Shown here piece by piece: positions 4,566 to 46,455 of a DNA stretch of 64,000 bases. The DNA comes from Conus ventricosus (lineage: Eukaryota > Mollusca > Gastropoda > Neogastropoda > Conidae). The notes beneath the pieces were generated by a model. It did no database searches, had not been told where the DNA came from, and saw nothing but the letters and a program-made list of their open reading frames with translations. The translations under genes and the position numbers were made by a program. The stretch spans positions 141,680,332 to 141,744,331 of the forward strand of contig CM031595.1 in assembly GCA_018398815.1 (NCBI GenBank). Reading direction: 5' to 3'. Numbering within the stretch: the first letter of the stretch is position 1; each line of letters starts with the position of its first letter.

Positions 4566-4621
<56 letters not shown>

Positions 4622-4742: not shown

Positions 4743-4779
<37 letters not shown>

Positions 4780-8182: not shown

Positions 8183-9977
8183 GTTTACCTGTGCGTTGTC
8201 CTAGCAGCAAATGTCCAGAGACTGACAGCCATAAGGAGAGGAAGTGGGGAACAGACAGAAGTGTACAGATGTGTCATCTAGCCACAAACATCTTCCCGCT
8301 GAGTGCTGAAGGAGGTAACCATGAGAGAGAGGAAGGAGGGGAAACAGGTAGAAGTACACCTGTCAGTTATCAAGCCACAAACATCTTCATGCCGAGTACT
8401 GAGGAGGTAAAGGTAACCACTAGAGAAGGGAGCGACAAGGAGCAGACTGAAGTGTACCTGAGTGCTATCTATCCACAAACATATTCATGCTAAGTGCAGC
8501 AGACAGTAAAAGTAGCAATGAGAGGGGTGGGAGAGGGAGAAGACCCAAGCGTACCTGTGTGTCATTTATCCACAACCATCTTAACGCCAAGTGTAGCAGG
8601 AGGTAAAAGTAGCCATGAGAGAGAAGAGAGAGAAGGAACAGGTAGAAGTGTACCTGTTTTAGACACACAGCAGTAGGGTGCAGCAGATGCTAAAGGTATC
8701 TACGAGAGAAGGAAGGGAGATGGAACAAACAGGAGTGTGCCTGCATGTTAGACACAAAGCACAAGACATCTTAATGCGGGGTGCAGCAGACGGTAAAGGT
8801 AGGCATGAGAGAGGGGAGAAGGTACAGGTACAAGTGTACCTGTGAGTTAGACATAAAACAAAAGGCATCTTCATGCGGGGGCAACAGATGGTAAAGGTGG
8901 GCATGAGAAAGGATTCCCTCAGGTACAAGTGTACCTGTGAGTTAGACACAAAACAAAATGGCATCTTCATGCCAGGTGCAGCAGATGGTAAAGAAAGGTA
9001 TGAGAGAGGGGAGGGAGAGGGAACAGGTAGAAGTATACCTGTGAGTTAGACACACAGTAAAAGCCGTCGTAATGCAAGGTGCAGCTGATGCTAATAGGAG
9101 AGATAAAAAGAAACAGTAGCAGGCAGTTTACCTGAGTGATATCCTGGACAGACCTTGTCCCAGCTAAAAATGTTTTACTGAAGGTAACAGTAGGTGGTGA
9201 GAGCAACCATTCAGAGAGGAGAGGGATGGTCAGTGATACTTTACTTGCGCTGTGAACTTGTCCTAGATATACATCTTGTTTTAGGCAACAGTAGATCATA
9301 AGAGTGCCATGAAAGGACAACTTGAATTCAGTTTACCTGTGCGATGTTCTGGAGACATACCTTTTTATCGTGAGCAATGGCAGGTGGTGAAGATTGCTAT
9401 GAAAGAAGAGAGTAAGGGTTGGTGGTAGTTTACCTGTGCGTTTTCCCATATATATCTTTCATACAGATAAAGAACAGTAAGTTATGAGAGCACCATGCAA
9501 GGAGAGGACGAGTCAATAACTTACCTGTGCCATGTTCTGGTGACAAAGTTCCTGTTGCAAAAAACAGTAATTGATAAGGGTAACCATGACTATAGGGGAG
9601 GGAAGGTTGGTAGTAGTCTACCTATGTGCTGTCCCAGATATGTCTATCCCACAGGTAAGGAACAGCAGGTGGTGACTGCCATGAGAGGCAAGTCAAAGGC
9701 ATTTTACTGTGTCCTGTTCTGGTAACACATCTGTTGTTCCAAGGAACAGTGAGTGATAAGAGAAGCTATTGGTCAGGCAATGAAAACAAGGCAGGTGGCA
9801 GTTTACCTGTCCTAGCTACACATCTTGTTTCATAAGGAAAACAGTGACAGCGGAGGGAGTAATGTCGATGGAAGTTTACCCACATGCTGTTCTAGCTACA
9901 CAGCTCCTTTTAAGGAATACTATGTCGTCAGAGTAGCCACATGACAGCAGAGGGAATGACAGTAAGTGATAGTTCAC
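8183..9977 (-). repeat. Degenerate ~95-110 bp tandem array made of 5' splice-site copies
   Basis: About 19 diverged units run from 8,183 to the exon at 9,978. On minus each ends in a GTAAA or GTGAA-like donor, for example AGCTAGAACAGCATGTGGGTAAA ending near 9,872. The exon end reads CAGCAAGACAGCACGCAG then GTGAAC. The block with CCATGAGAG also recurs in both exon and units. The last unit therefore overlaps roughly 90 bp of coding sequence. Confidence 0.8.
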
Positions 9978-10146
9978 CTGCGTGCTGTCTTGCTGACAGA
10001 TCTCTTGTTGCAGGCTGCGGTAGGTGTTGAGCGTGGCCATGAGAGGGGGTAGAGATGTGACAGAGTCATCCATCAGTTTGTGCTCGCTGCAGGCCAACTC
10101 TAGGGCTTCATCTAATGCCGTCGGCTGTTCCCAGGAAAACTGGGCC
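9978..10146 (-). CDS. Exon: helical region after coiled coil
   Basis: The acceptor is GACGTTCTCAG and the donor GTGAACTAT; it enters in phase 2 and exits in phase 0. It encodes AQFSWEQPTALDEALELACS, then EHKLMDDSVTSLPPLMATLN and TYRSLQQEICQQDSTQ. It is helical and charged, consistent with the region between coiled coil and kinase in STK31. The last roughly 90 bp are the end unit of the degenerate tandem array at 8,183-9,977. Confidence 0.82.
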
Positions 10147-10735
10147 CTGAGAACGTCACCATTCATTCCTTTAGATTATCAGAACTCTATGCATGTGCCC
10201 ACACGCATGCATTCTTGCTTGCATGGATGTGCATGCACATGTGCATAGGGTGGGAACATGCGTGTTTCATTTCTATGTATCTGCGTTGTGTGAATGTGCC
10301 AGTTTAATGGGGTATATAAGAGGAGTTAGGCAGTAAAGATAAGGACTACATATGTGCAAGTCCACCAGTTTCTACCAGAGTGGATATGGGCATACATGAA
10401 CATGTATGTGTGCCTATATATAGTTTTAACTTTTAAGGGTCATCGCTATTATTCTACCTCCAACAAATGCACATAAACCATGTTTCTCTGGATCAGTACA
10501 CAATTCAAGCAAAAGCCCTCAAGACATGAGGCAGTATATAATAATAACAGTAAAAATGAAGGCAGGATCCCCTTCACACTGCTGAAGGAAATTAATAGTG
10601 TGAATAGACAATCTGATTCTTCTGTAAAATGAAAAAAAAAAAAAAAAAATCAACAATAATACATGAGAGGAAGCCAGCATGGGGACCTTCATAAAGCTTT
10701 GCACGTTCAGTGAACATGTGAGAACAATGACTCAC

Positions 10736-10779
10736 CTGAGCTGTCGCACGTTCCCTGCCAGGCTGACCACCACTTTCAG
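10736..10779 (-). CDS. Exon: coiled-coil region (44 nt)
   Basis: The acceptor is GTGTGTTGCAG and the donor GTGAGTCAT. It reads LKVVVSLAGNVRQL plus two bases, and the leftover AG joins G of the next exon to give R. Phase agrees on both sides. Confidence 0.75.
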
Positions 10780-11223
10780 CTGCAACACACAGCACACCCA
10801 GTGTCATCATCGTCCTTTCATAAGCCTTTCTTTTTTTCACAGTGCAACAGCACTTACACATCTGTCAAGATGTCCACCTAGTGGCACTTGGCTGCTCTCT
10901 CAGTGTCGGTCATTGTCTGTCTGTTACACTCTGTTACATTCTGCCTGCATGACTATCATTGTGACCCTCTACCACTACATCATCAAAGGTAACTACTGTG
11001 TAGTTTGCTATGTTAAACTTGTTGCAAGCAACTACCTCTGTTCGGCCTGTTTTCCCCAACCAAGCCAGTATTAAGATACACAGCAGACCATCTTTCATTT
11101 TTTAATCTATACCTCACATCCACTAGCATTTCCTTTCATTTCTATGGCCAAATGCTGAAGAAAACATTCCTGTGAAGTTTTTACTTTGTCTCGAACCTTT
11201 GCATGAGCTTCATGTTACTACAC

Positions 11224-11292
11224 CTGCCTAAGCTTCAAGAGAGACTGAGGCCAGTTTGGAACAATGTGCTGAGCAGCCAGCTGGTCTTGGCG
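11224..11292 (-). CDS. Exon: coiled-coil region
   Basis: The acceptor CACCTCTCTCTTCAG is strong; the donor is GTGTAGTA. It has 23 codons, phase 0 to 0: RQDQLAAQHIVPNWPQSLLK then LRQ. No specific domain. Confidence 0.7.
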
Positions 11293-11436
11293 CTGAAGAG
11301 AGAGGTGAAAAAATGAGGTTGCCCAAACAACTGTGATGTTGAACCAACCCAGACAGTTTCCATGGGACAAAGAGCAAGGGTACACTCATTCTGTGGATAC
11401 CCCCAAAGCATATCTGGATAGGACAAGAAGCCATAC

Positions 11437-11812
11437 CTGATTCACCATGTTGTTCCAGGTGAAGTACTGATCTGATTTACAATGTTGTTCCAGGTGAAGT
11501 ACTCACCTGATTCACCATGTTGTTCCAGGTGAAGTACTGATCTGATTTACAATGTTGTTCCAGGTGAAGTACTCACCTGATTCACGATGTTGTTCCAGGT
11601 GAAGTACTCACCTGATTCATAATGTTGTTCCAGGTGAAGTACTGACCTGATTCCATGTTGTTCCAGGTGAAGTACTGACCTGATTCCATGTTGTTCCAGG
11701 TGAAGTACTGATCTGATTCACAATGTTGTTCCAGGTGAAGGACTGACCTGATTCACGATGTTGTTCCAGGTCAAGTACTGACCTGACTTGTTGCTCCAGG
11801 TGAAGTACTGAC
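11437..11812 (-). repeat. 35-bp minisatellite made of exon end plus 5' splice site
   Basis: About 11 units of 35 bp. On minus each reads AACATCGTGAATCAG then GTGAGTAC or GTCAGTAC and TTCACCTGG. The exon at 11,813 ends AACATCGTGAATCAG then GTCAGTAC, so each unit carries the last codons and the donor. Several copies have the stronger GTGAGT consensus. Reading through in the exon frame meets TGA near 11,773. Confidence 0.92.
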
Positions 11813-11875
11813 CTGATTCACGATGTTGTTCTCCTCCATTCTGGTGACCAGGCCCTGGAACTCCTGCTGCAGGGT
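11813..11875 (-). CDS. Exon: coiled coil
   Basis: The acceptor is GTTTTGACAG and the donor GTCAGTAC, giving 21 codons, phase 0 to 0. It encodes TLQQEFQGLVTRMEENNIVN ending in Q. The heptad-like spacing continues the preceding exon. The donor side continues into a 35-bp tandem array at 11,437-11,812 that repeats the final six codons and the 5' splice site. Confidence 0.82.
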
Positions 11876-12361
11876 CTGTCAAAACACAGTCAGAACATTT
11901 CTCCCACATCTTCTCACATATATGTTCCTTTAAGTTTGCTTACTGTGGTAACAATGTCAAAATTACATTCCTGGGCGCAGTTCCTAATCAGAAATACATG
12001 CTTCATATAATCATGAAAAAAAAATCTTTATGTATTGTTGTAAACAAGGAGATAATCTCTATTACATTCACTTCAATCAATATGAAGAGAGACATCCCTC
12101 TCCTGTTCACACAAATAGCAGTCTCAAGTAGCACACTGGACAAACACTGCAAAAACAGTCATGCTGGATCACCTTTAGTTACTCTAACGAATTTTTTTTT
12201 CTCTCTCTATCTTCATTGAGTATAAAGAGAGAAAGCATTCCACCAACAAAAGCTACTGAGCATCAATCAAAGACAGCAAAACTATGTACAAGTTCCAGTC
12301 TGCATTTCATCCTGAAGACAGCCCCATTTCATTCAATACATCCTAACAGACAGACACCCAC

Positions 12362-12583
12362 CTTGATCTTGACACGCTCCGCGGAGAGCTCGGCGCTGGC
12401 TTTCTCCAGAGCTCGCTGTTTGTTGTGCAGGTCAATCTTCAGGTCAGTGAAAGCAGGACCAGGTCCTTGCATCATCCCAGTCCCCAGGTGAGCTGGGGGG
12501 TCCCCCAGCACCGATCCCTTCTCCCCTCCCTTTCCTCCGACACCGAGGACAGGACTGGGACCACCCAACCTGATCACAGACAA
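12362..12583 (-). CDS. Exon: Gly/Pro-rich linker then coiled coil start
   Basis: It is 74 codons, phase 0 to 0, if the acceptor is TTTCAGTCAG; the donor is GTGGGTGTC. It begins LSVIRLGGPSPVLGVGGKGG and has a Gly/Pro-rich part including DPPAHLGTGMMQGPGPAF. It then turns into a charged heptad region, TDLKIDLHNKQRALEKASAE then LSAERVKIK, with regular L/A spacing. This matches the start of the long coiled coil that follows the Tudor part in STK31. An alternative acceptor 16 bases further in would break phase. Confidence 0.8.
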
Positions 12584-13574
12584 CTGACTGAAACATCCCG
12601 CCAATACCGCATCCAATCAACCTGGGTCAGTACTTCAAAGGTCAGCACCTCTTTACTTATAATTCGTAGGGCTAAAATTTAAAAACATTGGGTCAGCCCA
12701 TCAAAAACATGGAAAGCACTTTAAAACAAGGGCAACATTTCAAAATCTGAGGTAAAAAAAATTCAATGCAAAGAGTTAATTCGTCAAAGCATATAGAAGT
12801 CACAGCATTAAACTTCAAAAGTTAAGATCAAACTTTGACCTTTTGCCTATCAATCCATGCATATGAGCTGTTTTCCATTCACTACCAGCCCACCTGTATC
12901 TGCTCATTAAGGGTTACTCAACGCCTCATGTCCATACAGCTTATTTGGAAAAGAGTAAGCATAAAACAGCGCTTTCAACCGTCTTCTCCAGCCCCTGTAT
13001 TTATACCATTTGCAATGTGCTTCAATATATGCACCCCATTACGTTTTTCTTTAGCTCACCTTGTTGCAAGCGTCACCAACAAAAACAATGTGTGACAGTC
13101 ACAGAGGACCATCCATTTAACATGATTGTGGACAGTTTAACAGTCCAGGTGCCACGTAACTGGCAACAATGTCCTAATCATCAACACGGATTGAACAGGC
13201 GTGTCAAGTGGAAACAAGTAAGCTACCAAGAAGTGGTATTTTGGGATCTTCTTTATATAGGCTAGTGACTGCATCAGTTAGTCATAAACATCAACACCAA
13301 ACAAACGGACATGTGCATATCAAAATACATCCACTGCATATCAAAATACATCTACTACAAGGTTTTTAAACAAACTTTGCTGCAATTTGAGCTTGAAGGA
13401 TTTGGGAGGTTACAATACCTAGTGTCATGAGCTTATCTGGCGCTGTTAAAAATTCATTTGTGAGTTTCGTCTTTGCTGTGTACAGGAGAAAAGAAAGAAA
13501 AAAAAAGCCATAACAGTCAAAAGGTTTTAAAACATGCTGCTAGAAAAGAAGTGACTTGATGATCAGATTCTCAC
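12584..13574. other. Intron, no feature seen
   Basis: AT-rich sequence without coding signal or recognisable repeats. Confidence 0.6.
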
Positions 13575-13658
13575 CTTGAAGAACTGTTTCTCATGGCTCT
13601 GGTTCCCCAAGACCTGACGACCTTGCATCATCCCAAAAGACTTTGGCCACGATTCAAC
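13575..13658 (-). CDS. Exon: linker between eTud and coiled coil
   Basis: The acceptor is CAATGTATCAG and the donor GTGAGAATC, giving 28 codons, phase 0 to 0. It encodes VESWPKSFGMMQGRQVLGNQ then SHEKQFFK. No domain is recognised. Position, phase and exon borders support it. It is separated from the preceding exon by the DIRS element. Confidence 0.75.
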
Positions 13659-13874
13659 CTGATACATTGTCAGGTAAACTGTCGTCTCCCCCATGCCCCC
13701 AAGATCCCCCACTGTTGTACCCCCCCCATCACTCATGTGTGCTGGGAGGCTTCATTGGCCGGCTGCTGTAAGGACTGCAATGGCTGTGGATGTTGTTGCT
13801 GTTGCTTTGGCTGCACAAGACCATGAAGACAGTTTTACTACCCAGAACATACAGTTCACTGCACAAGGACAAAC

Positions 13875-14223
13875 ATGGGGATTTGTATTATACTCCCTGT
13901 TTGGCTAGTATACTTACCATGTCAGACAATAGCATTCACGGCAGTTAGTCAGCTCTGTCAGCCGAAGTTTTTGTGTGGCTAATGCAGTAATAAGACAGTC
14001 ACGTGATGACCAACCCGCTTCCGCCGTAGGAAGAAGCCAGTGTCAACCTCCCGTACCTCATTCATCGAGGCCTGCGCGCAAGGTAACCCCAGAACCTTGG
14101 CGCTAGTGGGGAAGGCAGGGCGGGCCATTAGAGTCTGACATGGTAAGTATACTAGCCAAACAGGGAGTATAATACAAACTCCCCATTTTGGGCGTCATAT
14201 ACTGTACCATGTCAGACAATAGC
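13875..14223. repeat. Palindromic segments at the DIRS left end
   Basis: 13,875-13,926 is inverted at 14,136-14,185 (GGCTAGTATACTTACCATG and its complement). Then 14,186-14,223 repeats the sequence seen, inverted, across the right outer edge (GGCGTCATATACTGTACC). This fits the complex complementary regions used by DIRS elements in their circular intermediate, or a nested second copy. Confidence 0.7.
13916..14062 (+). repeat. DIRS inverted terminal repeat, left
   Basis: About 147 bp beginning ACCATGTCAGACAATAGC and ending CTCCCGTACCTCATT. It is the reverse complement of 21,214-21,363 with few differences. Confidence 0.95.
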
Positions 14224-14228
14224 AGAAT

Positions 14229-15201
14229 TCATAGGAAAAGGAGGAGGGCGAGTGCCCTAGTGGTTCCTGGGTTACCCGATATGGATGCATTAGCCGCCAC
14301 AAAGGATATCCCATTAGAACCATCAGCCCTGGTCATGCGGATGTCCCTTAAAATAAATTTTATGAAGGGATTTTCCGAACGCCAGAAGGCTGCCTCCAGG
14401 AGGTGGCGCATGGGAACAGAGTGCCGGAAGGCTGCCGAAGCGGCCAGCGCTCTGACCTCATGAGCCCGGGGGGGACAAGACGGGGCGTCCTTGGAGGCCT
14501 GGGAATAGGCCGTTCTGACCGTCTTGGAGAGCCACCTAGAGACAGTGCCACTGAGATGTCTTTCGTGTTACTGGGGTTGATGGAAATAAGAAGACGTCTT
14601 CATGAAACGCGCCTGGGGCGCGAGCGTTCCCAGTAGTGTTTTAGACATCGAGAGGGGCAAAGGGCTATGTCCAAAGAGGTGTCTCCCCCTAGTGTATCTG
14701 CCAGCGGCGGATGACGAGGTAAGGAGAGGCCAAACCGGGTTCTGGTTCTTCGCTAGAATTCGGGAAGGAATTTAAGAGAGACGGAGCCGTCTCTGTGGAA
14801 GGCAATGTCTCTAGGGTCCCCGCTAGGGGCATGGATCTCGCCTCGCCTTCTGGCGGAAGCGAGGGCGAGGAGAAAGGTAGTCTTCATAGACAGAAGGTCG
14901 AAAGGAATGGAGGACACAGGCTCAAAGGGTTTTATTGAGGACGTCAAGTACAGTGAAGAGTCCCAAAGGGGGACACGTCTAGGGATCGGGCCTCACGAAG
15001 AGCAGCCCCTCTGGAGATCTCTCTGAGAAGGAAGTCATTCTCAAAGGAAGGTCCGCCCATTTGGCGGATGGTCGTGCAGATGGCCGACCTGTAGCCCCGG
15101 ATGGAGCTAGCAGAGAGGTTAAGGTGGGACAGGAAATTTCCTATCTGGATATTGGAGGGGCGATTTGAGGGACAGAATTGTCTTTGCACCATGAGACCCA
15201 T
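14229..15201 (-). pseudogene. DIRS tyrosine recombinase
   Basis: Three minus-strand frame pieces. The N-terminal core-binding part has NIQIGNFLSHLNLSASSIRG then YRSAICTTIRQMGG. The catalytic part has TTFLLALASARRRGEIHA, with the first catalytic R in a typical context. The C-terminal part contains HEVRALAASAAF (H-x-x-R box) and LLEAAFWRSENPFIKFILRD, matching the DIRS YR ending W-x-x-x-N-x-F-x-x-x-Y/F. At least two frameshifts. Confidence 0.88.
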
Positions 15202-15750
15202 TTCTCTCCATCTGTAATAGTAAAGGGACTCCGTGCTAGCTCTGGGGAGAGGACATGGCTAGGTCTCGAAGTTCCTGAGAGGCCCCGGCGATGGAGAGGA
15301 TACTGAGGACGGACTGGGACCTGTCGTTCGAGAAGGTGGATTTAGATGCTCACAACCGGCTGGCACAGAAGCCAGGCGTGGAGGCGAAGCATCTGGGGAT
15401 TGGAGTGAGGCGACCCGAACGGGGTTGCCTGAGCATGTCCCACCTGGTGTTCAACTGGAGAGGGGGTGCGTGAGTGAGGGACTTGAGGTCCGGGAACCAG
15501 GACTGAGTGGGCCACCATGGGGCTATGAGAATGAGCCGGGGTCTCTCGAGTCTCGCCTTCCTGATCACCTTGTGGAGGATCGGAAGGGAGGGAAGGCGTA
15601 AGCTATGAGGCCGGACCAGGGAAGGATAGGGCGTCGATGGCGTAAGCCTGGGGGTCCGGGACCAGAGACACATACACTGGCAGACGATGGTTGAATCGTG
15701 TGGCAAAAAGGTCGACCATGGGTCTGAACCAATGTTCCCACAGGGTTTTG

Positions 15751-17330
15751 TTAGGGTATGCCTGCTGAGGGCCCAAATTCCGTGTGGAGGACAGACTTGG
15801 AGCGGCTGAGAGAGTCTGCCAGGATGTTGTGTGTCCCTGCTATGTGTCTCGCGCGAAGGGTGACCCCCTGCGTGTGACACCAGCGAGGAGGGCCCCTGTA
15901 CGGAGGGAGAGGCCGATGGAGTGTGCCCCCCCCCCCACCCCCTTGTTGATGTAACAAGCTACCGAAGTGTTGTCCGTGAAAAGGAGAACGAATCGTGGGA
16001 GACCATGGACTGGAAGTGGAGGAGGCGAGCCTGACCGCCTCCAGTTCCAAGATGTTTGATGTGAAGACGAGAAGTGAAGTCAGAGGATCCCAAACCCCCG
16101 AGGCGTGACTGCTCTCCAAATGGGCCCCCCAGCCCGAGTTGGAGGTTCTGTGTAAAGTTCCAGGGCCTGGATGGGAGGGGGATGGGAACTCCGGGGGCCA
16201 GGGTGGAGGGGCTGAGCCACTCCTCCGTGGCCCAAACGAACCAAGGCCCTAGGGGAATGGTCTGGTTCCAGCTGTCGTTGGTCTGGGACCAACGACGGAG
16301 ATGAGGTCCACTAGGCGGGCAGACCTCTCCGGGGTAGGGGCGACTATCATGGAGGTGGTGTCGAAGCTCATGCCCAGAAAGGTGAATCGCTGACTGGGCG
16401 AGAGCTCGCATTTGGAGGGGTTGGTGACGAACCCCAGAGAGGAACAAAGGTGTAGTAGTTTGGAGGGGTGGGATTGGGCCAGGCCTGAGTGGGAGCCAAG
16501 ACAAGCCAGTCGTCGAGGTAAACCAAGAGGCGAATGTCCTCCTGTCTGGCAAGGGCGGCCATCTCCTTGACTACCTTCGTGAAGAGGAAGGGAGCCAGGG
16601 AGAGTCCGAAGGGGAGAGCACTGAATTGAAACACCCGGCCCCGCCAGACAAAACGAAGGTATTGTCTGTGGGACGGGTGAATGAGGATCTGAAAGTAGGA
16701 ATCTTTCAGAAACTATAGAAGTGGCCCAGTCCAGATGGTGGATGGAGTCCCTGATCTGGGCCGGGGTCTCCATCTTGAATCTGGTTGGCCCGAGAAAGGG
16801 GGGCGTTCGTGTGCCCAGGGTAGACGGAACCCCTCCCATTTGAACAGATACTACCCAGGGGTTGAGACCCATGCGCCGCCACTGGGGGGCATGCCGGAAC
16901 AGATTGCCTGCCAGGGGGCAGAGGGGCCGAGGGAGGTAGAGAAGACTGACATTTCCCGCCTCTCGGAAGGTGAGTCTGCTAGTCACCTCCAGGGCCGGGC
17001 CTGTTGGCCGAACCGAAAATTCTGTTGGGGGGTTTTTCGGTTTGGGCCTAGGCGGGGTGGAAGTAGGGTGTTTGGCGGGCCTTGAGGGACGCTGCTTGGG
17101 GGAGGGCTGGGGTCTGGCTGGGGGTAGGGCCTGACAAAGGAATGGTCTAGAAGGGCGATGCTGACGAGGGGTCTTGGTCGCAAAAGAAGCGGCCTGTTTG
17201 CGCTCCTCGACGGCATGGGTAATGACAGCAGCAGAGTAGTCGCCGAAAAGCGACTGCTCCTGACCCGGAATGCAGCGTAAGGCCGCCTTGAGCGCTGGGG
17301 GGAGATGGGCCTGTGATAGCATAGCATCTC
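15751..17330 (-). pseudogene. DIRS reverse transcriptase and RNase H
   Basis: A Pro/Arg-rich stretch, then RT motifs MFQFSALPFGLSLAPFLFTK and IRLLVYLDDWLVLAPTQ (YLDD active site, about 16,500). RNase H follows with LEAVRLA, then LRARHIAGTHNILADSLSRS near 15,810-15,870. The first RT blocks are spread over two frames. A poly-G/C run at about 15,926-15,940 adds a frame break. Confidence 0.88.
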
Positions 17331-17533
17331 TCACTGCCAAAAGGCAGTTAAAGTGACTCCTGGCTGCGCTGTCCGCCGCAGCCCAAGGTGGTGCGCTATC
17401 TTGTTGACAAGAAAACGCATCAGGGGGTCATCAAACAGGCTGGAGTAAGCCTCAGTGTCGTCAGGGTCCGAAGACGCTGAGACAGTGCCAGCCTCCTTTG
17501 GCCAGAGTTCCTCAGCTCGCTGTAGGAACATGT

Positions 17534-20059: not shown

Positions 20060-20094
<35 letters not shown>

Positions 20095-21213: not shown

Positions 21214-21363
21214 AATGAGGTACGGGAGGTTGACACTGGCTTCTTCCTACGGCGGAAGCGGGTTGGTCATCACGTGACTGTCTTATATTACTGCATTAGC
21301 CACACAAAAACTTCGGCCTGGCAGAGCTGACTAACTGCCGTGAATGCTATTGTCTGACATGGT
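21214..21363 (-). repeat. DIRS inverted terminal repeat, right
   Basis: Partner of the left repeat. It ends GCTATTGTCTGACATGGT. Confidence 0.95.
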
Positions 21364-25160: not shown

Positions 25161-25325
25161 TCATAGTGTCAGTGCACTGAATATACTGAATATATGCTTT
25201 CAGTTAGCAGATCTGCCTTAACACTATCATAAAGTACACATAGTCAAAATTGTCAATCTTCATCTCAAGTACCAGGTGTAAATGACATACAGAAAGAAAG
25301 ACAGCAACATAAAAACCACACAAAC

Positions 25326-25406
25326 CTTTTCACCACCGCCAGAGCTGTTTATCTTCAGCTGGCACCTATACCACTCTCCATCCTCCGAAAACTTGCCTCC
25401 GTAAAT
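25326..25406 (-). CDS. STK31-like: Exon: Tudor core, strands 1-2
   Basis: The acceptor is TTTATGTGTCAG and the donor GTTTGTGTGG, giving 27 codons, phase 0 to 0. It encodes IYGGKFSEDGEWYRCQLK then INSSGGGEK. The A/G-x-F-x-E-D-x-x-W-Y-R-C block carries aromatic residues that in Tudor domains form the methyl-arginine cage (W and Y here). This is the segment that most directly identifies the gene as STK31-like. Confidence 0.92.
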
Positions 25407-27208: not shown

Positions 27209-27361
27209 CTTTCCAGGCTCAGGCCGACTCTGCAATGTGGGAGCATTTGCGCAGATTTCAGCCAATTTCGCCCTGAGATTTTCCACTTCAACCTGAAGAG
27301 TCTCGTTCAGATCTTGACACCAGTACAGCGTGGGAGTCTCAACGTGTGTCACGTACATAAG
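27209..27361 (-). CDS. STK31-like: Exon: Tudor domain N-terminal part
   Basis: The acceptor is GTTGTTGAACAG and the donor GTAAGTCGC, giving 51 codons, phase 0 to 0. It encodes LMYVTHVETPTLYWCQDLNE, then a helix-forming stretch with VENLRAKLAEICANAP, ending SRPEPGK. The pattern of beta strand, then F/Y-W-x-Q, then amphipathic helix is the standard opening of extended Tudor domains (V-x-x-V-x-S-P-x-x-F/Y-W-x-Q), where the helix precedes the aromatic-cage core in the next exon. The helix length and the closing GK just before IYGG match the STK31 family. Confidence 0.88.
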
Positions 27362-29738
27362 CTGTTCAACAACCAGTCAGAAATGTCTCACTTTAGACAA
27401 CACGAATCATTTTGAGAAGTGATAAAGAGTTTTGGTCTATCAACACATCTTACATGTTGCTTTAGTTACCATTCACCTAGTGACTCAGTATGCATGATAA
27501 CAGACATGGAAGAAGATGGTTTAGTTTAATGTCCACTCAGCATGACTTTTATTATTTTTAGTGACATACTGTGTACTGCTTTGAAAAGGAGGCACCCTGC
27601 ATAGTCCTTCCCTCCCACAGGAGCCTGGATCAAATTATTCGTTTGTTTGTAGTCGGTGTTCTCTTCTTCCATTGTCAGTCGTCCTAGAATGAGTCTGAGT
27701 GATGATAGTGCCTTCCCTTGTTGCCTTCCCTCCATGGCCGTTTTCAAGACTATCAGGCGGCCTTCTTCTTGCTGAGTGGTGACGGTCCTGTGCTGTCTGA
27801 GGCCAACTCAGGAAACATGTAGGACAACAATCACCTAGGTCCACATCCATTTTGTGCCTGTGGAGAACGTTATCACCACTCCCTTCCCCATGGAGAGGGC
27901 CCTGCTGGTCGTGCCAGCCACAGTGAAGTTGCACAGTGGCAGCTGCTCATTGCCCAACTGCCCCACAGCCTCAAGAGCCGTCCTACAGCAACACTTGCTA
28001 GATCCATCTGCATTGCTGATGACAAAGAAATTAGGTTGTATTGCCATGTGCCTACCTGTCACATCGGCCCCTTCCAACGATAATGCCACTTCAAGCAGGT
28101 ATGTTGACAATGTCAAACATGGACATACAGTGAGCATGATACACGTGCTGTAACTTGTGATGAATGTGCAGCATCAGCTCTGCAAGAACTGGTTTGTGGC
28201 TCCAGCACAATTTGTCATGATCAATATCAATGTGTATGTAGAGTTGTGTTTGCTATGAACTTTTACATGTCCAAGCTTCAAGTCAGTTGAATCTTCGTCA
28301 GTTGAGTCTTTTTTCAACATTTCATTTTCATATTTGACTTCTGCCATTAGTTAAAATATATTACTTGAAAACAGCTTAGCTGTTGCCCAGAGTGGCCTTG
28401 GTTCCCTTATCATCCACTAGAAGATGAAATGCACTTTATTCCTTACAAATTAATGATGTAATGACGCATAAACAAAAATATATAACCTCACAAAACCTAA
28501 AATCAACTTACCCTGGTTTTCACATTCTACCTGCTGAATTAAGAGTAATTTATCATAACAGGAACTAATTTCAGTGACTTCACACAAACAAAACATGAAG
28601 AAAAAAAACCAAGAATACTCAACAACGGACACAACCGCTTGTCAGTTTCTTTCACATTGTATTTGCCAGTGAGCAGACAGATTTTTTCCCAAAGTTTCTT
28701 TGAGAACAATAGTTTAGCCACCAAAGCATAGACATTCAGACATTCTCCACCCATTCAACTCAGGCCAACAATGCCAGTGCAGCCAGTACAGCAGCAGCAG
28801 CATTGCTTTGCATTGCAAAAGATTGTGGCTGCTCATCTACATCAAATCTGCAAAATTTTATAAGCTGTGATCATAGCCAAATTTCTAATAATTTTGGATA
28901 ATCTATAACAAAATGAATATCATTTTCTGTGAAAAAGAACTGCATGAAACTATTCTATTCGTATGCTTAGCATTGTTTCTTATGGAAATTTCTTTTTGTG
29001 TGTGTGTGTATTATATCTTCTATAAATATATGCCGGTTTGATCATTTGTAATGACTGCAGTACCAGATTAACTCCACTCTTAAATCTTGAGTGGTTCGTA
29101 CTGAATCAATAGGCAATTGATAATTATTCAATTACAGGTATGCAAGGAAGATGTAATTTTATTGGAATTAAAACAAGTCTATCAGGATGTATCGAGCCTG
29201 GCTTCTGCGATGATTCCATAAAACTAATCCTCCCTATAGGTCATAAGTCCAGTGGCCACACTGTTCTTGAAATGGATGGCCATGCAGTGCCTGATACTCC
29301 CATGATTCCTCACTGCGTCTTCACAACTTCATTATAATTCTATTGTTAAATACCATGTTTCATGCATAAGTCTAGTTAATGGAAACTTGAGAGATTCAAT
29401 TGATCATTTCTATATACAGAAACTGGTAACTTGCATATAGTATTGACATACTCTTGTTACCTTCCTTTGGAATGCCTCATTGTCTTTCTTTTTTTTTTTT
29501 TTTTTTTGTTGTTGCTAGCACAGGTATGGTGCTCTCCTTCCCTCTCTCTTTCTCTCCTTTCTTTGATGTATCTGCTTTAAATTTCTCTCTCTCTTTCTTG
29601 CTCACTAGCTTTGTTTTGCACTTGCTCTTACGTCTCTTTCCGACATGACAACACGAATGCACACACAGAAACGCATACACAAAAGCACACACATATGTAA
29701 TTTAAACATTTTTAACAATTTTAAAAAAAATTACATAC
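27362..29738. other. Intron with an unidentified double-open stretch
   Basis: At 27,835-28,153 both strands are open for about 100 codons, with a further open stretch on minus at 27,526-27,934. GC is higher than in the flanks. It could be a decayed transposable element; no motif is recognised. A poly-T at 29,491-29,508 lies near a TC-rich stretch. Confidence 0.4.
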
Positions 29739-29785
29739 CACTGACCCAGGAAGGCGGTTGGCCCATAATGCAGAGGTATATTGGT
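29739..29785 (-). CDS. Exon: lead-in to Tudor domain (47 nt)
   Basis: The acceptor is TTTAATTTCTAG and the donor GTATGTAA. Read with one base from the preceding exon it gives QYTSALWANRLPGSV and ends in phase 0. It joins the next exon in frame as PGSV-LMYVTHVETPTLYWCQ, a typical first Tudor strand with an aromatic W. The other two frames are also open but do not match the next exon's phase. Confidence 0.65.
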
Positions 29786-29930
29786 CTAGAAATTAAACAC
29801 AAAAGAAAAATCATAACAATAATATCACCATAACAATAACAATAACAATAAAACAATCAGGCAAGGTACAATATTAATTACAATGACAGGAATACAATAA
29901 TGATAATGATACTACTTTTACAACTACTGG

Positions 29931-30281
29931 CTACTGATGATAATAGTCATAATAAAGCAAAATCAATGTAAAATTTGCCATTAGCAATGCATTAACTCTG
30001 ACATTTGGATCATTATTAGTGAATTGTATCACAAGAACAGAACTGTACTGATCCAGTAAATCACAAACAAATAACTTTTCTTTTAAACAAATTTTTTTTT
30101 TTAACAAACATCCACATTCTCTATGTGGTTTCAAAGTAATGTGAGTCTGAGAGGCTAGAAGTTCCCACATAACTTCAGATATAGGTCCATTAAATATCCA
30201 TGCAGAAAGAACAGACTGTGGACACACATGTTGGCTGTAGCTTCAAGTAAACACAAAGCAATTTTCAGTGTCATGCCAACG
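29931..30281 (-). other. Possible exon or orphan open stretch
   Basis: A good acceptor (TTTTTGTCTGCAG, ending near 30,282) is followed by DVGMTLKIALCLLEATANMC. A frame shift later, a 98-codon open stretch includes SAWIFNGPISEVMWELLASQ. No donor fits well and no family is recognised. It may be part of the STK31-like gene that joins the exons at 30,956 and 29,739, or it may be chance. Confidence 0.25.
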
Positions 30282-30955
30282 TCCTGCAGACAAAAAGGAA
30301 GAAAATACTACAAATGCAGTAGATAGGAGTGGAAGGGGCAATGGGAAAGGTGAAAAAAAAAAAGTAGACAGTGCTCTACTAGAGCACCCGTTTCATATCG
30401 CAAAGTAACATAATTGCTGGTTTCAACTATATTAACAACAAGTTTTCATTTAGATTTATGTCATCGATTGGAAAAAAATCAAGGATTAGAAGTGGCATTC
30501 CAAAAATTTCCAGCAGCAAAAATGACGAGGAAATCAACTGAAAGAAAAGTGGAAATCAGATAAAAGATGACAAATAACATGCCTGTTATTTTTTCATGGC
30601 TATTACAACTACAGGACCCTTTCAGGGCTGGTTACCATACACACAAAAATCCCGTCGTGAAAGAAAAAAAACCTATACACTGCCCAATATGATGCTATAC
30701 TATTGACCAATAAAACCTAGTTTTGGAGACTTTGGATAGTGTTTAACAATACTACCACTTGTAGTTAGATTTCTGAAAAAGAAAAAAGGTCAAATATCAT
30801 AAACTGTGATGAGGAAGAAAGTGTAAAGACTTCTTAGAACAGAGACAGAGAAATACGGCAGGAAAAACAGAAAATTAGAAGAATCATGAAAAAAAAAGAC
30901 AATCATAAAAAACGAAAGAGAATCACAGAGACAGAGAAAAAAGGAAAATACTAAC

Positions 30956-30987
30956 ACATTTTCCTGAAGGTGGAGACATAACTCATT
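30956..30987 (-). CDS. Possible small exon
   Basis: The acceptor TTCTTCTTTTCAG has a strong pyrimidine tract. The exon reads NELCLHLQEN and continues from phase 0. Two overlapping donors are possible (GTGTTAGT, or two bases later GTTAGTAT). The link to the next certain exon (29,739, which needs one leading base) is not resolved by either, so another exon probably lies in between. It may include the open stretch at 29,931-30,281. Confidence 0.4.
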
Positions 30988-31519
30988 CTGAAAAGAAGAA
31001 GAAAAAAAGAAGCGTCAAGGGGCATGGACACAGTTTTACAAAAGAAAAACCTAGTAATGACCACACCGGACCCGTCACTACAGTAGTGACAAGTAAACAG
31101 GTGTACAGCAGTGACAGATAACATAAATGCAATTAGCCAACAACAAATCATGTACGCACTAAAACGACAGACGAAAGAAAGGAGAAAGCAGAACATGGGG
31201 ACGGTCAGCGCCAAACATGAGCAAACAGTCTCCATGGTGAAATGGCGGTCACTGGGAGGTGGCCAGGTTGAACCTCTGAGGCATCTACTGGCTGGCTTTT
31301 TCAGCCCTCACACAGACCCAAGAACTGCTGGGACTTGGAAGTGTTATCACCAAAAACTCCAACACAGCCAGGTCAGCAACAAGCCATTTCTCACAATGGG
31401 TGCAAACTCACAGCTTTAATGTTCTAACACCCAAATGGAAGGAAAATGGAACATTCTCGTAACGCAGCTGCAGGTACTCAGGAGAATCCGAATGAAGGCT
31501 GTAACGTAACGTTTCTTAC

Positions 31520-31569
31520 CTCTCCTTCAGGGCCTGGTGACGGAGATCCTGTGGGCTCCACTGCAGGCA
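31520..31569 (-). CDS. Exon: Pro/Glu-rich linker (50 nt)
   Basis: The acceptor is GTTGTGGTGACAG, immediately next to a (CA/GT)n tract, and the donor is GTAAGAAAC. With the leftover G of the previous exon it reads [17 protein letters not shown] and ends in phase 0. It is short and has no domain, but the phase fit and both splice sites are good. The microsatellite at 31,580-31,690 occupies the place of a normal polypyrimidine tract. Confidence 0.65.
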
Positions 31570-31579
31570 CTGTCACCAC

Positions 31580-31635
<56 letters not shown>

Positions 31636-31690
31636 TACATACACACACACGCGCGCCCGCGCACACACACACACACACACAGACACACAC
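31580..31690. repeat. (CA)n microsatellite beside exon acceptor
   Basis: CA dinucleotides with a GCGCGCCCGCGC interruption. It begins about 10 bp from the acceptor of the exon at 31,520-31,569. Confidence 0.95.
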
Positions 31691-32362
31691 GATTCAAAAA
31701 CATGCATACAATCAACAACACTTTATTCTGACAGACGATTAGTGCAGCATGCTAGTACATGAAGAGATTAGGGACAAGGAAATATTAACACCTGACAAAG
31801 GTGAGTCATAAAGTTCGACATAGGTGACAAGAAACCCTGCTGACAGTTATGTAACTGTAATAAACTCACTGATAACAAGCATGTGCTCATATGTGAAAAC
31901 TCACCATAGATAAGAAAGGTTAAATAAGAAAAGTTAAATACATACAGATAAAATGTGAAATGAGCTACTCTCCTTGGTTTTAGATGTGGGTGCTGCGCTG
32001 AACTGAGCTACACTAAAACTGCAAGTGGCAAGTTAAAAAAAAAGTTAAAATAAAAACGCAAATACCATAGAAATTGAAAAATCTCACTATGTCAAGTGTG
32101 TTACCAATAACGAGTGGAAAAGAAAAAAACAGTCACACCCCCACACACACACACACACACACACACACTGAAATGAACATGATAAAACTGACAGATATCA
32201 TGTGTTTGTGTCAGTATAATGTAAAGTGAAGAAAGCAAGAAAACAAAAACCAACTCCCCGAAAAGTGTGGTGTCAGAAATGAGCAACATTAAACACACAC
32301 AGAGAGACTCAAAAAACAGATCAAAAACAAAAAAACATAAAACCCCACCCCTCTGATATCAG

Positions 32363-32366
32363 GTGT

Positions 32367-32441
<75 letters not shown>

Positions 32442-32532
32442 CTGAGAAGTCTGCAACAATTTTCTTAAAAATCACTGATGCTGATGTGAATTTAGCAATG
32501 GTAACACACATGCAAACACACACACACACACA

Positions 32533-32575
<43 letters not shown>
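32363..32575. repeat. (GT)n and (CA)n microsatellites in opposite orientation
   Basis: A GT tract of about 75 bp (32,363-32,438) and a CA tract (32,513-32,575) are 75 bp apart. They are complementary and could form a hairpin. The intron at 31,700-32,360 shows nothing else apart from a short CA tract at 32,146-32,168. Confidence 0.9.
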
Positions 32576-32577
<2 letters not shown>

Positions 32578-32579
32578 CA

Positions 32580-33842
32580 GTGATGGCAGAGTAAAGGATA
32601 TGACCACACTGACATCAGACATGTGCCAATAAGTGAGAAGGAACATCAGGTGTTGCACCAATACAGTGACCACCAATCAAAACCTCATGGATGTCAGGTG
32701 TGCACGCCAGTAATGTGAGAAGTAACCATTAATCAGAAACTCACTGTCAGGTGTATGCTCCAGAAAAGTGAGATGAGATCACCAATAACAAACTCTCTGA
32801 TTTCAGGTGTGGGTACCAGTAAAACGAAATATGACCACCAATAAGAAACTCACTGATGTCAGGTGTGTGCACCAGAAAAGTGAGATGAGATCACCAATTG
32901 CAAACTCTGATTTCAGGTGTGGGTACCAGTAAAACGAAATATGACCACCAATAAGAAACTCGATCACATCAGGTGTGTGCACAAAGAAAGTGTGATGTGA
33001 CTGCCAAAACAGAAACTCGATGATGTCAGGTGTGTGTGCCAGCAATACGCTCACCGATCCTAGATGAGTGCCCATAAAGTACCCCAGTAAAAATAAATCT
33101 GATATGACACGAATAGAAGCTCACTAATCTGGTTATATGCACATTACCTCCCATGCATTCTTCAACTTGAATATGTAAAAGAAACTTTAACTTGCATGTA
33201 CTCATGCACATGGTACTTTGAGAAACTTGCTTTTCAATTCTTCACACAAAAGAGTACACAGAGATAATTGTGGATATTGTCAATCTCAGGTGTGTGCCCT
33301 GTAAGTGAAATGTGACTGCTGATAAAAAAACTCACTGATCTCAAATGTATCCCCTGGTAAAGTGAGATGCATCCCAAAGACACAAATTCACAGAGGTCAG
33401 GTGTGTGTGCCAGTAAAGTAAGATGTGATCACCAATGAGAACTCACTGATCTCAGGTGTGTGCCCCACTGAAGTGAATTATGACCACCCATAAGAAACTC
33501 ACTGATCTCAGGTGTGTGCCACAGTGAAGTACATTGTGACCACTCATAAGAAATTCACTTATGTCAGGTGTGTGCCCTGGCAGAGCGAGATGTGTACCCC
33601 AATCAGAAACTCACTGATGTTGGGTGTCTGCGTCAGTAAAGTGAGATGTGACCGCCAACAAAGAAAGCTTACTGATCTCAGGTGTGTGCACCATAAAAAC
33701 GAGATGCGACCACAAATAAATACTCACCGATCTCATTAAAGCTGTGATGTGAGCACCAGCAAGTTTCTGATGTAATGTGCATGTTCACATATAGTAAGAA
33801 GCAAGAAACCCATTAAAAAAAAAAGAACAATTAGGAACTCAC
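32580..33842 (-). repeat. ~55-60 bp array made of 5' splice-site copies of linker exon
   Basis: About 18-20 units. On minus a unit reads GGGCACACACCTGAGATCA then GTGAGTTTCTTAT; the real exon end reads GGGCAAAAATCCTGACATTG then GTGAGTTCCTAAT. GTGAGT is kept in most copies, so decoy donors are strong. Confidence 0.88.
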
Positions 33843-33985
33843 CAATGTCAGGATTTTTGCCCAATTGAGTTTTGCCGGTACCATCCTTAGTGGCCACCCA
33901 GGTGCCCCCTGTTACCACCACCCCGGACCCACCACCACTGCCACTTACACCACCTCCGCCTGCTCCTGCACCAGCCGGTGGTTTG
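33843..33985 (-). CDS. Exon: Gly/Pro-rich linker
   Basis: The acceptor is GTTTACAG and the donor GTGAGTTCC. It encodes KPPAGAGAGGGGVSGSGGGS and then GVVVTGGTWVATKDGTGKTQ and LGKNPDI. No domain is recognised; it looks like a flexible linker between the RRM-like and Tudor parts. Entry in phase 2 and exit in phase 1 agree with both neighbours. The donor side passes directly into the intronic array at 32,580-33,842. Confidence 0.75.
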
Positions 33986-35419
33986 CTGTAAACACAAAGT
34001 TTGATTAGATAATCCCTGTTTGACAGGCATACCTGTGTATCTGCATCATCTGATTTGGATGAGTACTCCCTGCGGCACATCCTTCTAATACACCTATTTT
34101 GTATAAATGCACAGTTGTATAGGTGCACACACACACACACACACCACACACACACACACATATACACACATACTACATCAGCCCTGAGTGGCCCTTTGCG
34201 GTCGGCTGGGCTATAAGCAACATTATCTGATCTGACATACATACACACACACATACCACAGTTTAAGCTGAAAATGTGAAATCAACAGAAAAAGAAATCA
34301 GATCAATTTAACAGCCTTCAATTATGACTACTGCTAGAAAAACCCACAAGGGCTTTGGCCAGAACGAACAAACTGCTCCCCTGAACAGACTTTCAGTACA
34401 ATCATTTTAATCGTTTACTAATAGACTGAACTTAACAATCAACAAGAGCACTTTTATGCATGTACTTTTTATGCATGTATAAGCATAGTGGCATACAAAC
34501 TGATTATTACAACCTCTGTCTTTAAGGTTATTTTCTCATCCACATTGTTGGTCTCATTGTCTGTCAGAGTCTGTCAGCAAGATTATGCAAAAACAATGAA
34601 CTGATTTTAATGAAACCTGCTGGTGAGTCATCTCGGATGAATCCATGAAATTTGGTACAGATCAAGATCAAGCAAAGCTTCAGGAATTTTGCTCACTTTC
34701 TTCAACATTGCAAGACAAGGCATTTTTTGACATTTCTGTGAATTTCTCAAAAAAAAAAATGCATGAAATATATTCAAGCAATTTACATGTACTGTTACCT
34801 AAGTGGGTTTTTTTTTTGTAAGATCTTGTGTGGATACAGAAGACAGCCTGAACCCTGTGAGCAAACTAACATTCATACTGGAACAGGGATACATACTTTG
34901 TCAGAGTTTACCAACAAACTAAGCTAGGATCTACGCTTCCATCAAAGGATGGCCGAGATGGTGAGGATCCAAGAAGGTACAACCATTTTGATGTTCAATG
35001 TATTTACAATAGGTTTGGATAGACACAATGGATTCCAGACTGGTTTCATTAAAGTCTAGGGTACTGTTCAATCTTGGCGGGCATCTGCTTTCTCCTGAGT
35101 GCCCTTCTAGTGGATGTTTGTCTTGGATGACCAATCAGTGGATGGAGGGTACACAATCTTAGTAGATGCAACATGTCCAGCTATGCTCTTTCTCACTTTT
35201 TTTTCTTTTTTCATTTTCTTTCCATTATGCAACTACCGTCAGAAAAAAAAATTTTTAAAAAGAAAACAAAATATTAGGCTTGGTCATTACCAAGTCTGAC
35301 TCACTACAGCTGTGCTGGGGGTCATAAAAATAAGCCACAGATAGGAGCAAATGACATCTATAAAAAGTGACATAATAAAGAAAAATCAGCATGTGCATGC
35401 CAACAGATGTTCCTTGTGT

Positions 35420-35461
<42 letters not shown>

Positions 35462-35480
35462 ATGTGTGTGAGTGTCTGTG

Positions 35481-35554
<74 letters not shown>

Positions 35555-35661
35555 GTGCGTGTATGAGTGGATGTGTGCATGCATGCGTGAATGTGTGTGT
35601 GTGTGTGTTCATGCATACTTGCATGTATGCATGTGTGTAAATGTAAACATACATATCAGCA

Positions 35662-35709
<48 letters not shown>

Positions 35710-35766
35710 GTGTGTGTGTGTGTGTTAAGTACTTAACAGGCTTAAAAGCCAACAGCACAATCATAC
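33986..35766. other. Intron with CA/GT tracts
   Basis: CA tracts at 34,126-34,168, and two long GT tracts at 35,415-35,560 and 35,660-35,726. The rest is AT-rich with no coding signal. Confidence 0.7.
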
Positions 35767-35877
35767 TTGGTCTTCCTCTCCATGCGGCGGACAAGGATGG
35801 GCATGCCGTCCAGTAGGATTCCATTGGATTCGCTCACTGCACGGTCAGCGTCTGGCTCTGACAGGTATTTCACCACC
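35767..35877 (-). CDS. Exon: RRM-like C-terminal half
   Basis: The acceptor is TGTGTGGTCAG and the donor GTATGATTG. The exon encodes VVKYLSEPDADRAVSESNG followed by ILLDGMPILVRRMERKTK. The pattern of a beta strand (RNP1-like), a helix with D-A-D-R-A, a Gly turn and a closing strand is typical of the second half of an RNA recognition motif. It ends in phase 2, which matches the next exon at 33,843 exactly. Its acceptor side is continuous with a minisatellite made of copies of that acceptor (35,878-36,520). TDRD10 is a known case of RRM plus Tudor; the same pairing is inferred here. Confidence 0.7.
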
Positions 35878-36520
35878 CTGACCACACACAGACCACCCCG
35901 TCTCTGTTAATGCTAACATCTTCACCACCCCATCTCTGTTAATGTTAACATCTTCACCACCCTGACCACACACAGACCACCTCCTCTCTGTTAATGCTAA
36001 CATCTTCACCACCCTGACCACACACAGACCACCTCCTCTCTGTTAATGCTAACATCTTCACCACCCTGACCACACACAGACCACCTCCTCTCTGTTAATG
36101 CTAACATCTTCACCACTCTGACCACACACAGACACCCTTTGTAATGCAACATCTTCACCACCCTGACCACACACAACCACCCGTCTCTGTTAATGCTAAC
36201 ATCTTCACCACCCTGACCACACACAGACCACCCTCTCTGTTAATGCTAACATCTTCACCACCTGACCACACACAGACCACCCCCTCTGTTAATGCTAACA
36301 TCTTCACCACCCTGACCACACACGACCACCCCTCTCTGTTAATGCTAACATCTTCACCACCCTGACCACACACAGACCACCTCCTCTCTGTTAATGCTAA
36401 CATCTTCACCACCTGACCCCACAAGACACCCTCCTTTTACATCTTCACACGACCACCCGACCCCTCTCTGTTAATGCTAACACTTCACCACCTGACCACA
36501 CACAGACACCCTCTTGTATG
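35878..36520 (-). repeat. ~59-bp array made of 3' splice-site copies of RRM exon, runs into gap
   Basis: About 11 units. On minus a unit reads GTCTGTGTGTGGTCAG then GGTGGTGAAGATGTTAGC; the exon starts GTGTGTGGTCAG then GGTGGTGAAATACC. Copies near the gap have more indels, as expected from poor consensus. Confidence 0.92.

Positions 36521-44835: not shown

Positions 44836-44915
<80 letters not shown>

Positions 44916-46453: not shown

Positions 46454-46455
<2 letters not shown>

Follow-up and report, generated by a model that had tools for sequence, protein, structure and literature searches.

Minisatellites built on exon/intron borders in a Tudor-domain gene of Conus ventricosus

Border repeats in other animals

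Tandem repeats of exon/intron borders are known from amphioxus, where they have been named mirages and occur in the genes for Adh3, the globins BflGb6 and BflGb9 and troponin C; they are described there as leaving normal splicing apparently undisturbed (PMC3087553, PMC3902484). The lancelet PGBD5 gene is described with imperfect tandem repeats of 60 and 108 bp covering 5′ and 3′ splice sites, the 108 bp repeat being a triplication (PMC3902484). A related idea, the Rogers model, derives new introns from AG/GT proto-splice sites that were duplicated in tandem (PMC3087553, PMC2891723). Stretches of GT, CA and GA are mentioned for Conus introns in another report, and they resemble what is seen in the present DNA (PMC3862624). 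For earthworm metallothionein introns, large minisatellites are described and exon duplications mentioned (PMC12783039). Among the matches listed, judged by titles and the beginnings of abstracts in open-licence PubMed Central, we recognised no report of border repeats outside amphioxus.

We analysed a 64,000-nucleotide stretch of the Conus ventricosus genome (the window), in which a single gene carries six minisatellite arrays, A1 to A6. The kind of structure is already known from the amphioxus mirages (PMC3087553). As in the mirages (PMC3087553), the repeat unit spans the exon/intron border, here in five arrays; the duplicated border may be a donor or an acceptor, here three donors (E12, E10 and E2) and two acceptors (E6 and E1); and many copies, although not all, keep AG or GT (here 71/90, or 63/90 with an alternative E6 acceptor). 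Unlike the published mirages, the present arrays are five unrelated ones of differing age in one gene. The lancelet PGBD5 repeats share with them the imperfect tandem repetition of splice sites, but lie in a different gene, and each array here has 11–27 hits besides the junction copy. The Rogers model likewise involves tandem duplication with splice signals, whereas here existing introns have been lengthened and no new intron was seen.

The host gene and its arrays

The host is an intron-rich Tudor-domain gene on the minus strand, spanning about 5.4–35.9 kb of the window, for which we modelled 14 exons. The gene and the exons that matter below are as follows.

5361..35877, minus strand: Tudor-domain gene, 14 modelled exons (E1 to E14), both gene ends outside the model
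35767-35877, minus strand: exon E1, from the exon model
33843..33985, minus strand: exon E2, from the exon model
23856..24004, minus strand: exon E6, start at 23999, or at 24004 if E5 is shortened to end at 25337
13575-13810, minus strand: exon E8, from the exon model, tentative
11813..11875, minus strand: exon E10, from the exon model
9978..10146, minus strand: exon E12, its last 65 bases present in the A1 unit
5361-5465, minus strand: exon E14, from the exon model

In this model, splice sites and phases are consistent for E1–E6 and E9–E14, and neither E7 nor E8 has a frame open throughout in the present assembly. Both versions of the E6 acceptor yield an open frame, with a slight preference for the alternative in the Pfam TUDOR score (89.5 bits versus 87.6 with the first model). 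The spliced E1–E7 part matches Pfam TUDOR with an E value of 2.6e-24, and the E6 frame matches it on its own. STK31 combines a Tudor domain with a C-terminal protein kinase domain. The first-pass annotation, made from the sequence alone, had called the gene STK31-like, a tentative name; the Tudor domain fits it, and Pfam found no kinase domain on the minus strand in the stretches scanned, 4501-14100 (in the three frames) and 23001-46500, the 3′ end of the gene lying beyond the modelled exons. A repeat-like motif in intron 1 had no match in scans of genome contig and viral contig collections.

The six arrays, with hits counted besides the junction copy, are listed here.

8178..9977, minus strand: A1, unit ~98 bp, 19 hits with a profile of the array body; unit made of the last 65 bases of E12, the donor and the intron start
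11435..11812, minus strand: A2, unit 35 bp, 11 hits with a profile of the array body (11.6 copies at 88% by TRF); unit made of the last 19 bases of E10, the donor and the intron start
22333..22945, minus strand: A3, unit ~50 bp, lying in the intron that follows E7, with 12 copies detected
24000..25265, minus strand: A4, unit ~46 bp, 27 hits, two of them below 5 bits; unit made of the intron end, the acceptor and the first 15 bases of E6 (20 with the alternative acceptor)
32605..33842, minus strand: A5, unit ~56 bp, 20 hits; unit made of the last 10 bases of E2 (perhaps 26 in a looser alignment) and the donor
35878..36520, minus strand: A6, unit ~51 bp, 13 hits, adjoining a run of N at 36521-36620; unit made of the intron end, the acceptor and the first 9 bases of E1

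Five arrays as copies of the adjacent border

To link arrays to borders, we built profiles from the array bodies with the junction copy excluded and compared them with border targets of 80–169 bases each. On these short targets, the A1 profile found the E12 donor (30.6 bits, E 2e-11), A2 the E10 donor (38.7 bits, E 3e-14), A4 the E6 acceptor (30.5 bits, E 3e-11), A5 the E2 donor (6.9 bits, E 3e-4) and A6 the E1 acceptor (36.6 bits, E 2e-13). Run against the reversed window as a control, the six profiles scored no higher than 2.5–4.9 bits. In an independent test, border windows of 25+25 bases were compared with up to 2500 bases of their own intron at all 28 modelled edges, and P fell below 0.05 only at the five borders that the profiles had found (P 0.003–0.007). 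This confirms that A1, A2, A4, A5 and A6 are each made of copies of the exon/intron border beside them.

The exonic share of the units is uneven, at about 9–65 bases, and so is its power to reveal the link. When 30 exonic bases were compared with up to 3000 bases of adjacent intron, the E6 acceptor, E10 donor and E12 donor were flagged (P up to 0.01), and the E1 acceptor, E2 donor and E7 donor were not; to detect E1 and E2, the intronic side had to be included as well. The exonic part alone gave P 0.015 for A5 and was not significant for A6 (P 0.13). The A1 consensus from TRF, which represents the distal, best-conserved part of the array, did not match the E12 edge in pairwise comparison (rank 23 of 28); the match appears with the profile of all copies. 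A3 is a genuine array, and its link to the E7 donor is an unproven candidate at most: its TRF consensus ranks the E7 border 2 of 28 (P 0.045–0.047), and its profile did not find that border. The earlier count of five or six arrays copying the neighbouring splice site thus holds for five, the array at 22.3–22.95 kb being the one that the profile fails to tie to an exon.

No array copies deeper inside the exons were detected by the profiles, so expansion has been on the intron side, as the first-pass annotation had it. For A4, the direction of copying is also shown. The Tudor-domain stretch (VK)IQYIDYGN stands at the start of E6 and is the one that A4 copies; because this copied exon start encodes part of a domain recognised by Pfam, the exon is the source of the array unit.

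The five units are unlike each other, and outside its own array each profile scores at most 12.3 bits. The top case is a decayed tail of A5 in the same intron, which reaches ~31862 and gives hits of 8.3–12.3 bits at 31862-32370. These scores agree with the view that one process was repeated at different junctions, as opposed to one repeat family. Mean column conservation ranges from 0.71 in A1 through 0.81 in A4, 0.82 in A5 and 0.93 in A2 to 0.94 in A6, which indicates that the arrays differ in age. In published accounts of mirages, copies at the array edge escape homogenisation; here, copies come closer to the consensus with distance from the exon in A1 (rho 0.66, P 0.002), the opposite holds in A6 (rho -0.68, P 0.015), and the relation is not significant in A2, A4 and A5. 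Outward growth from the exon was considered as a general pattern and rejected, identity to the true junction falling significantly with distance in A6 only (rho -0.71, P 0.009) and not in A1, A2, A4 or A5.

Origin of the arrays and placement at junctions

We favour, with a probability of roughly 0.75, the interpretation that these are mirage-type junction-spanning minisatellites that arose by neutral duplication bridging the junction, followed by ordinary array turnover. Each such array would have begun with the tandem duplication of 35–98 bp of exon plus intron, the new copy lying on the intron side. Splicing at the exon-proximal site would leave the protein unchanged, so the duplication would be tolerated. 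Through slippage, unequal exchange and neutral mutation, each array may then have grown and become disordered on its own and in its own time. The mechanism of duplication, its neutrality and the use of exon-proximal sites are our inferences. Of the three explanations offered at first pass, simple slippage with exon-side expansions removed by selection fits best.

That annotation had also raised the idea that decoy sites tune splicing; in that case, selection would have kept the copies as decoys or spare splice sites that adjust the splicing of the host gene. GT or AG is indeed retained in most of the 90 non-junction copies counted, weak hits included (A1 16/19, A2 8/11, A4 23/27 or 15/27 with the alternative E6 acceptor, A5 13/20, A6 11/13), and four pseudo-donors, one in A1 and three in A2, match the consensus at 9/9 positions, compared with 7/9 and 8/9 at the true sites. 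Their strength implies that some factor must make splicing favour the exon-proximal site, and it counts against the neutral interpretation, as does the fact that the splice dinucleotide of A1, like that of A4 under the first acceptor model, ranks in about the top tenth of column pairs. The fraction of column pairs as conserved as the splice dinucleotide is 0.10 in A1 and 0.11 in A4, but 0.82 in A2, 0.66 in A5 and 0.65 in A6, and the A4 value rises to 0.84 with the alternative acceptor. Over all five arrays together, the dinucleotides show no excess of conservation over other pairs of adjacent columns (Fisher P 0.35; 0.73 with the alternative acceptor), so that column conservation carries no signal of decoy-site selection. 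Moreover, 3/11 A2 copies have AT, and use of 76/77 additional sites examined would cause a frameshift or a stop (68/69 among those still with GT or AG), a test run with the first E6 acceptor model (start 23999). We therefore regard a splicing-tuning role as very unlikely. The reverse history, in which the arrays came first and exon edges were carved from pre-existing minisatellites by splice-site shift, gains some plausibility from A6, whose exonic share is just 9 bases and whose E1 acceptor is predicted from the exon model. It is still less probable, since the exonic part of A4 codes for a conserved Tudor-domain segment, and the 65 exonic bases of A1 read as open coding frame within a gene model that is consistent. 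Least probable of all is an assembly artefact. A6 does lie next to the N run, E7 and E8 are without a continuous open frame in the assembly, and several A6 and A2 copies are almost identical among themselves; however, units differ from array to array, and copies deviate from the consensus by up to ~44% in A1, 32% in A4 and 29% in A5 over the columns compared, where a looping assembler would yield near-identical copies.

A harder question for the tolerated-duplication interpretation is placement. Junction placement is more biased than a model of random duplication predicts, and pure neutrality with uniform starting points is therefore incomplete. The gene also holds four interior two-copy duplications (period at least 20), none of them at a junction, whereas 5/6 of the multi-copy arrays lie at one. 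Tandem duplication might accordingly begin preferentially at splice junctions, one conceivable route being damage at the border that is linked to transcription or splicing. The product of chances that five randomly placed arrays would all span a junction is 1.3e-6 over 13 introns, a figure that did not count A3 as a miss and includes A6, whose intron, interrupted by the N run, falls outside the 13; conditional on the host intron, and without A6 (four arrays), it is 7e-4. Both donors and acceptors are among the 5/28 modelled edges affected in this one gene. Set against this, the random model assumes ancestral intron sizes, a single gene was picked for its striking appearance, and large arrays also lie beyond the gene at 47–60 kb with no known exon (the Pfam exon search near there covered 36.6–46.5 kb of the minus strand). 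We consider a seeding preference of this kind improbable on present evidence.

The host is not a cephalochordate, and splice junctions may thus be recurrent minisatellite seeds in another animal lineage as well. A broader reading, which we offer only tentatively, is that duplication is generally biased towards junctions and lengthens introns, and that it acted at least five times in this gene at different ages. Five independent, differently aged cases in one gene provide a test bed for intron growth and for the mutation-proneness of junctions, and the dense, strong extra splice sites would allow a test of spliceosome selectivity towards nearly identical sites. As a minor observation, Rfam returned one tRNA match at the gathering threshold.

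Model of the Tudor-domain gene

We modelled the gene from the sequence as 14 minus-strand exons with GT/AG sites, running from E1 (35767–35877) to E14 (5361–5465). The open frame and phases agree across E1–E6 and E9–E14. Neither E7 (23029–23188) nor E8 (13575–13810), a tentative exon, has a frame open throughout; their sequence was left unmended, and the breaks are perhaps assembly or read errors, suspected near runs of G. The spliced E1–E7 part matches Pfam TUDOR (E = 2.6e-24) and Tudor proteins of the PDB, the best being a TDRD1 entry (3e-11). Because Pfam found no kinase in the minus-strand frames scanned (4501–14100 and 23001–46500), STK31, the likeness proposed in the first-pass annotation, is only a candidate name. 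E1 presumably resembles the second half of an RRM, and Pfam did not call an RRM in this exon. The E6 acceptor is ambiguous by five bases (23999 versus 24004); the alternative model, with a shorter E5 ending at 25337 and E6 starting at 24004 after a standard TCAG, is slightly preferred by its TUDOR score (89.5 versus 87.6 bits). Intron 7 holds two further features:

14000–22000: GC-rich insert (50–57% GC) with long frames
13870–14190: inverted repeat of 58 bases, 91% complementary, 205 bases apart, at one edge of the insert

We take the long frames to resemble a DIRS-type retroelement; Pfam gave no match up to E 0.1 for three frames at 15350–17427 and one at 18015–18707.

Tandem arrays and the exon edges they adjoin

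The gene carries six tandem arrays (A1–A6), each of which had been proposed, less clearly for one, to copy the adjoining splice site. We built a profile of each array from its copies minus the junction copy, the one at the exon edge itself, and ran it on that edge. Five profiles match and that of A3 does not; on the reversed window, used as a control, best scores reached only 2.5–4.9 bits.

Arrays, profile scores (bits) and copy statistics. Kept, non-junction copies retaining GT or AG; pair fraction, share of adjacent column pairs conserved at least as well as the splice dinucleotide in copies above 5 bits, a rank among columns and not a strict P value; chance, modelled chance of spanning a junction. 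A4 values are for the first E6 model.
Array; position; edge; score at edge; best score beyond own array; exonic bases per unit; mean column conservation; kept; pair fraction; chance
A1; 8178–9977; E12 donor; 30.6; 4.2; 65; 0.71; 16/19; 0.10; 0.132
A2; 11435–11812; E10 donor; 38.7; 9.3; 19; 0.93; 8/11; 0.82; 0.039
A3; 22333–22945; E7 donor; no match; 7.8
A4; 24000–25265; E6 acceptor; 30.5; 7.8; 15; 0.81; 23/27; 0.11; 0.056
A5; 32605–33842; E2 donor; 6.9; 12.3; 10; 0.82; 13/20; 0.66; 0.071
A6; 35878–36520; E1 acceptor; 36.6; 4.8; 9; 0.94; 11/13; 0.65; 0.064

An independent edge test compared 25 exonic plus 25 intronic bases at each of the 28 modelled edges with the rest of the same intron (up to 2,500 bases; for the E1 acceptor up to the N run, for the E14 donor up to 4800), against 300 dinucleotide shuffles per edge (lowest attainable P 0.003). 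Five edges reached P < 0.05, where chance predicts one or two: the E1 and E6 acceptors and the E2, E10 and E12 donors, at P 0.003–0.007. Profiles and edge test thus uphold the copying claim for A1, A2, A4, A5 and A6, and the A3 profile does not. The A3 consensus ranks the E7 donor second of 28 edges (P 0.045–0.047), and the closest of its 12 detected copies begins 84 bases from the exon end; a putative derivation from the E7 border is unproven. Exactly 100 N (36521–36620) lie directly beside A6, so the span given for this array is provisional.

The A5 junction match scores below matches in its own tail, and the link to E2 rests mainly on a pairwise comparison, in which the E2 donor comes first among the 28 edges with 40 points (P 0.0005). 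The tail comprises the 12.3-bit match and three others of 8.3–9.6 bits in the same intron, at 31862–32370, and is probably decayed A5. These probable remnants come within ~300 bases of E3, and much of intron 2 may therefore be old array.

The exonic part of the A4 unit grows to 20 bases under the alternative E6 acceptor. Tested alone, the exonic share gave P 0.0145 for A5 and a nonsignificant P 0.13 for A6; in both, the alignment continues unbroken from the intron across the splice site into the exon. The exon start copied in A4 encodes IQYIDYGN, inside the Tudor part that Pfam recognises in that frame alone, which makes the exon the source and A4 the copy. Growth on the intron side only, as first proposed, was borne out, the profile scan detecting no copies farther inside the five exons. 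Column conservation points to a recent origin for A2 and A6 and an older one for A1, and arrays of differing age indicate that the process has recurred.

Mirages, splicing and placement

A1, A2, A4, A5 and A6 are well supported as genuine arrays of an already described kind, the mirages, tandem repeats of exon/intron borders. The amphioxus account (PMC3087553) gives units of 10–160 bp at either border, many copies retaining AG/GT, length instability, data said to suggest that regular splicing is not disturbed and an origin called unclear; PGBD5 and troponin C are further cases in PMC3902484. The present arrays share three of the four anatomical features tested with mirages as described there. 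For the fourth, an escape of array-edge copies from homogenisation, the signal is mixed: copies approach the consensus with distance from the exon in A1 (rho 0.66, P 0.002), the trend is reversed in A6 (rho -0.68, P 0.015), and A2, A4 and A5 show no significant trend. Five arrays in one gene exceed the number per gene in the relevant passages of the two accounts.

The copies had also been read as decoys that tune splicing. In copies retained as splice sites, GT or AG would be expected to outlast other positions. The dinucleotide is kept in 71 of 90 non-junction copies, weak matches included (63 with the alternative E6 acceptor, A4 then keeping AG in 15/27). It is not better conserved than other column pairs: the five fractions combine to Fisher P 0.35, or 0.73 with the alternative A4 site (fraction 0.84), which makes the decoy reading a little weaker but leaves the weighting of the readings as it was. 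The reading frame also speaks against decoys. Under the first E6 model, we followed 77 pseudo-sites, the corresponding positions in the other copies (A1 17, A2 11, A4 24, A5 13, A6 12). An A1 site lacking G, two A4 sites with weak matches and five A5 sites lacking GT were dropped beforehand; eight that have no GT or AG remain in the set (A1 one, A2 three, A4 three, A6 one). Their use would destroy the open frame in 76/77, or 68/69 of those with GT or AG. The sole exception, the first A2 copy, lies 30 bases on, in frame and without a stop (11783–11813), and could possibly yield a ten-residue splice variant. Four pseudo-donors (A1 one, A2 three) match the consensus at 9/9, versus 7/9 and 8/9 in the true sites; if expression is normal, the exon-proximal site must therefore be preferred for other reasons, a preference of the cell that we infer from sequence. 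The mirage-type arrays are most likely neutral.

Placement was modelled by letting a single duplication of the array's unit length fall at random in 13 introns, with at least 9 exonic bases required and introns shortened by their arrays and the 8 kb inserted in intron 7. The product of the five chances is 1.3e-6, or 8e-8 with present-day intron lengths. With arrays fixed to their present introns, the chances for the four that can be tested are 0.26, 0.07, 0.46 and 0.08 (product 7.4e-4). None of these products enters A3 as a miss, the intron of A6 lies outside the 13, ancestral intron sizes are assumed, and the gene was picked for its striking look. The gene also holds four two-copy interior duplications of period at least 20 (7819, 7922, 13314, 23269), none at junctions, and the large arrays outside the gene, at 47–60 kb, have no known exon tie, nearby exons having been sought by Pfam on the minus strand at 36.6–46.5 kb. 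Given the model assumptions, the choice of gene and the arrays beyond junctions, a bias of tandem duplication to splice junctions is suggested, not established.

Repeats outside the gene

281–895, plus strand: reverse transcriptase fragment of a LINE-like element (Pfam RVT_1, E 4.6e-12)
45847–49731 and 49727–53624: segmental copies, 97% alike
44879–48884 and 56334–60298: segmental copies, 92% alike
46710–46854: tRNA-like stretch (Rfam tRNA, 29.8 bits; cut-off 29)
49756–50238, minus strand: weak RNase H-like match (Pfam RVT_3, E 0.0012, under the curated cut-off)

Within 44879–60844 lie three G-rich arrays of period 64–73 bp, and a 58 bp array comes after every one of them. The tRNA-like stretch adjoins sequence similar to the repeat unit of one G-rich array (47193–49344), so a SINE-like element may have been the starting point of that array.
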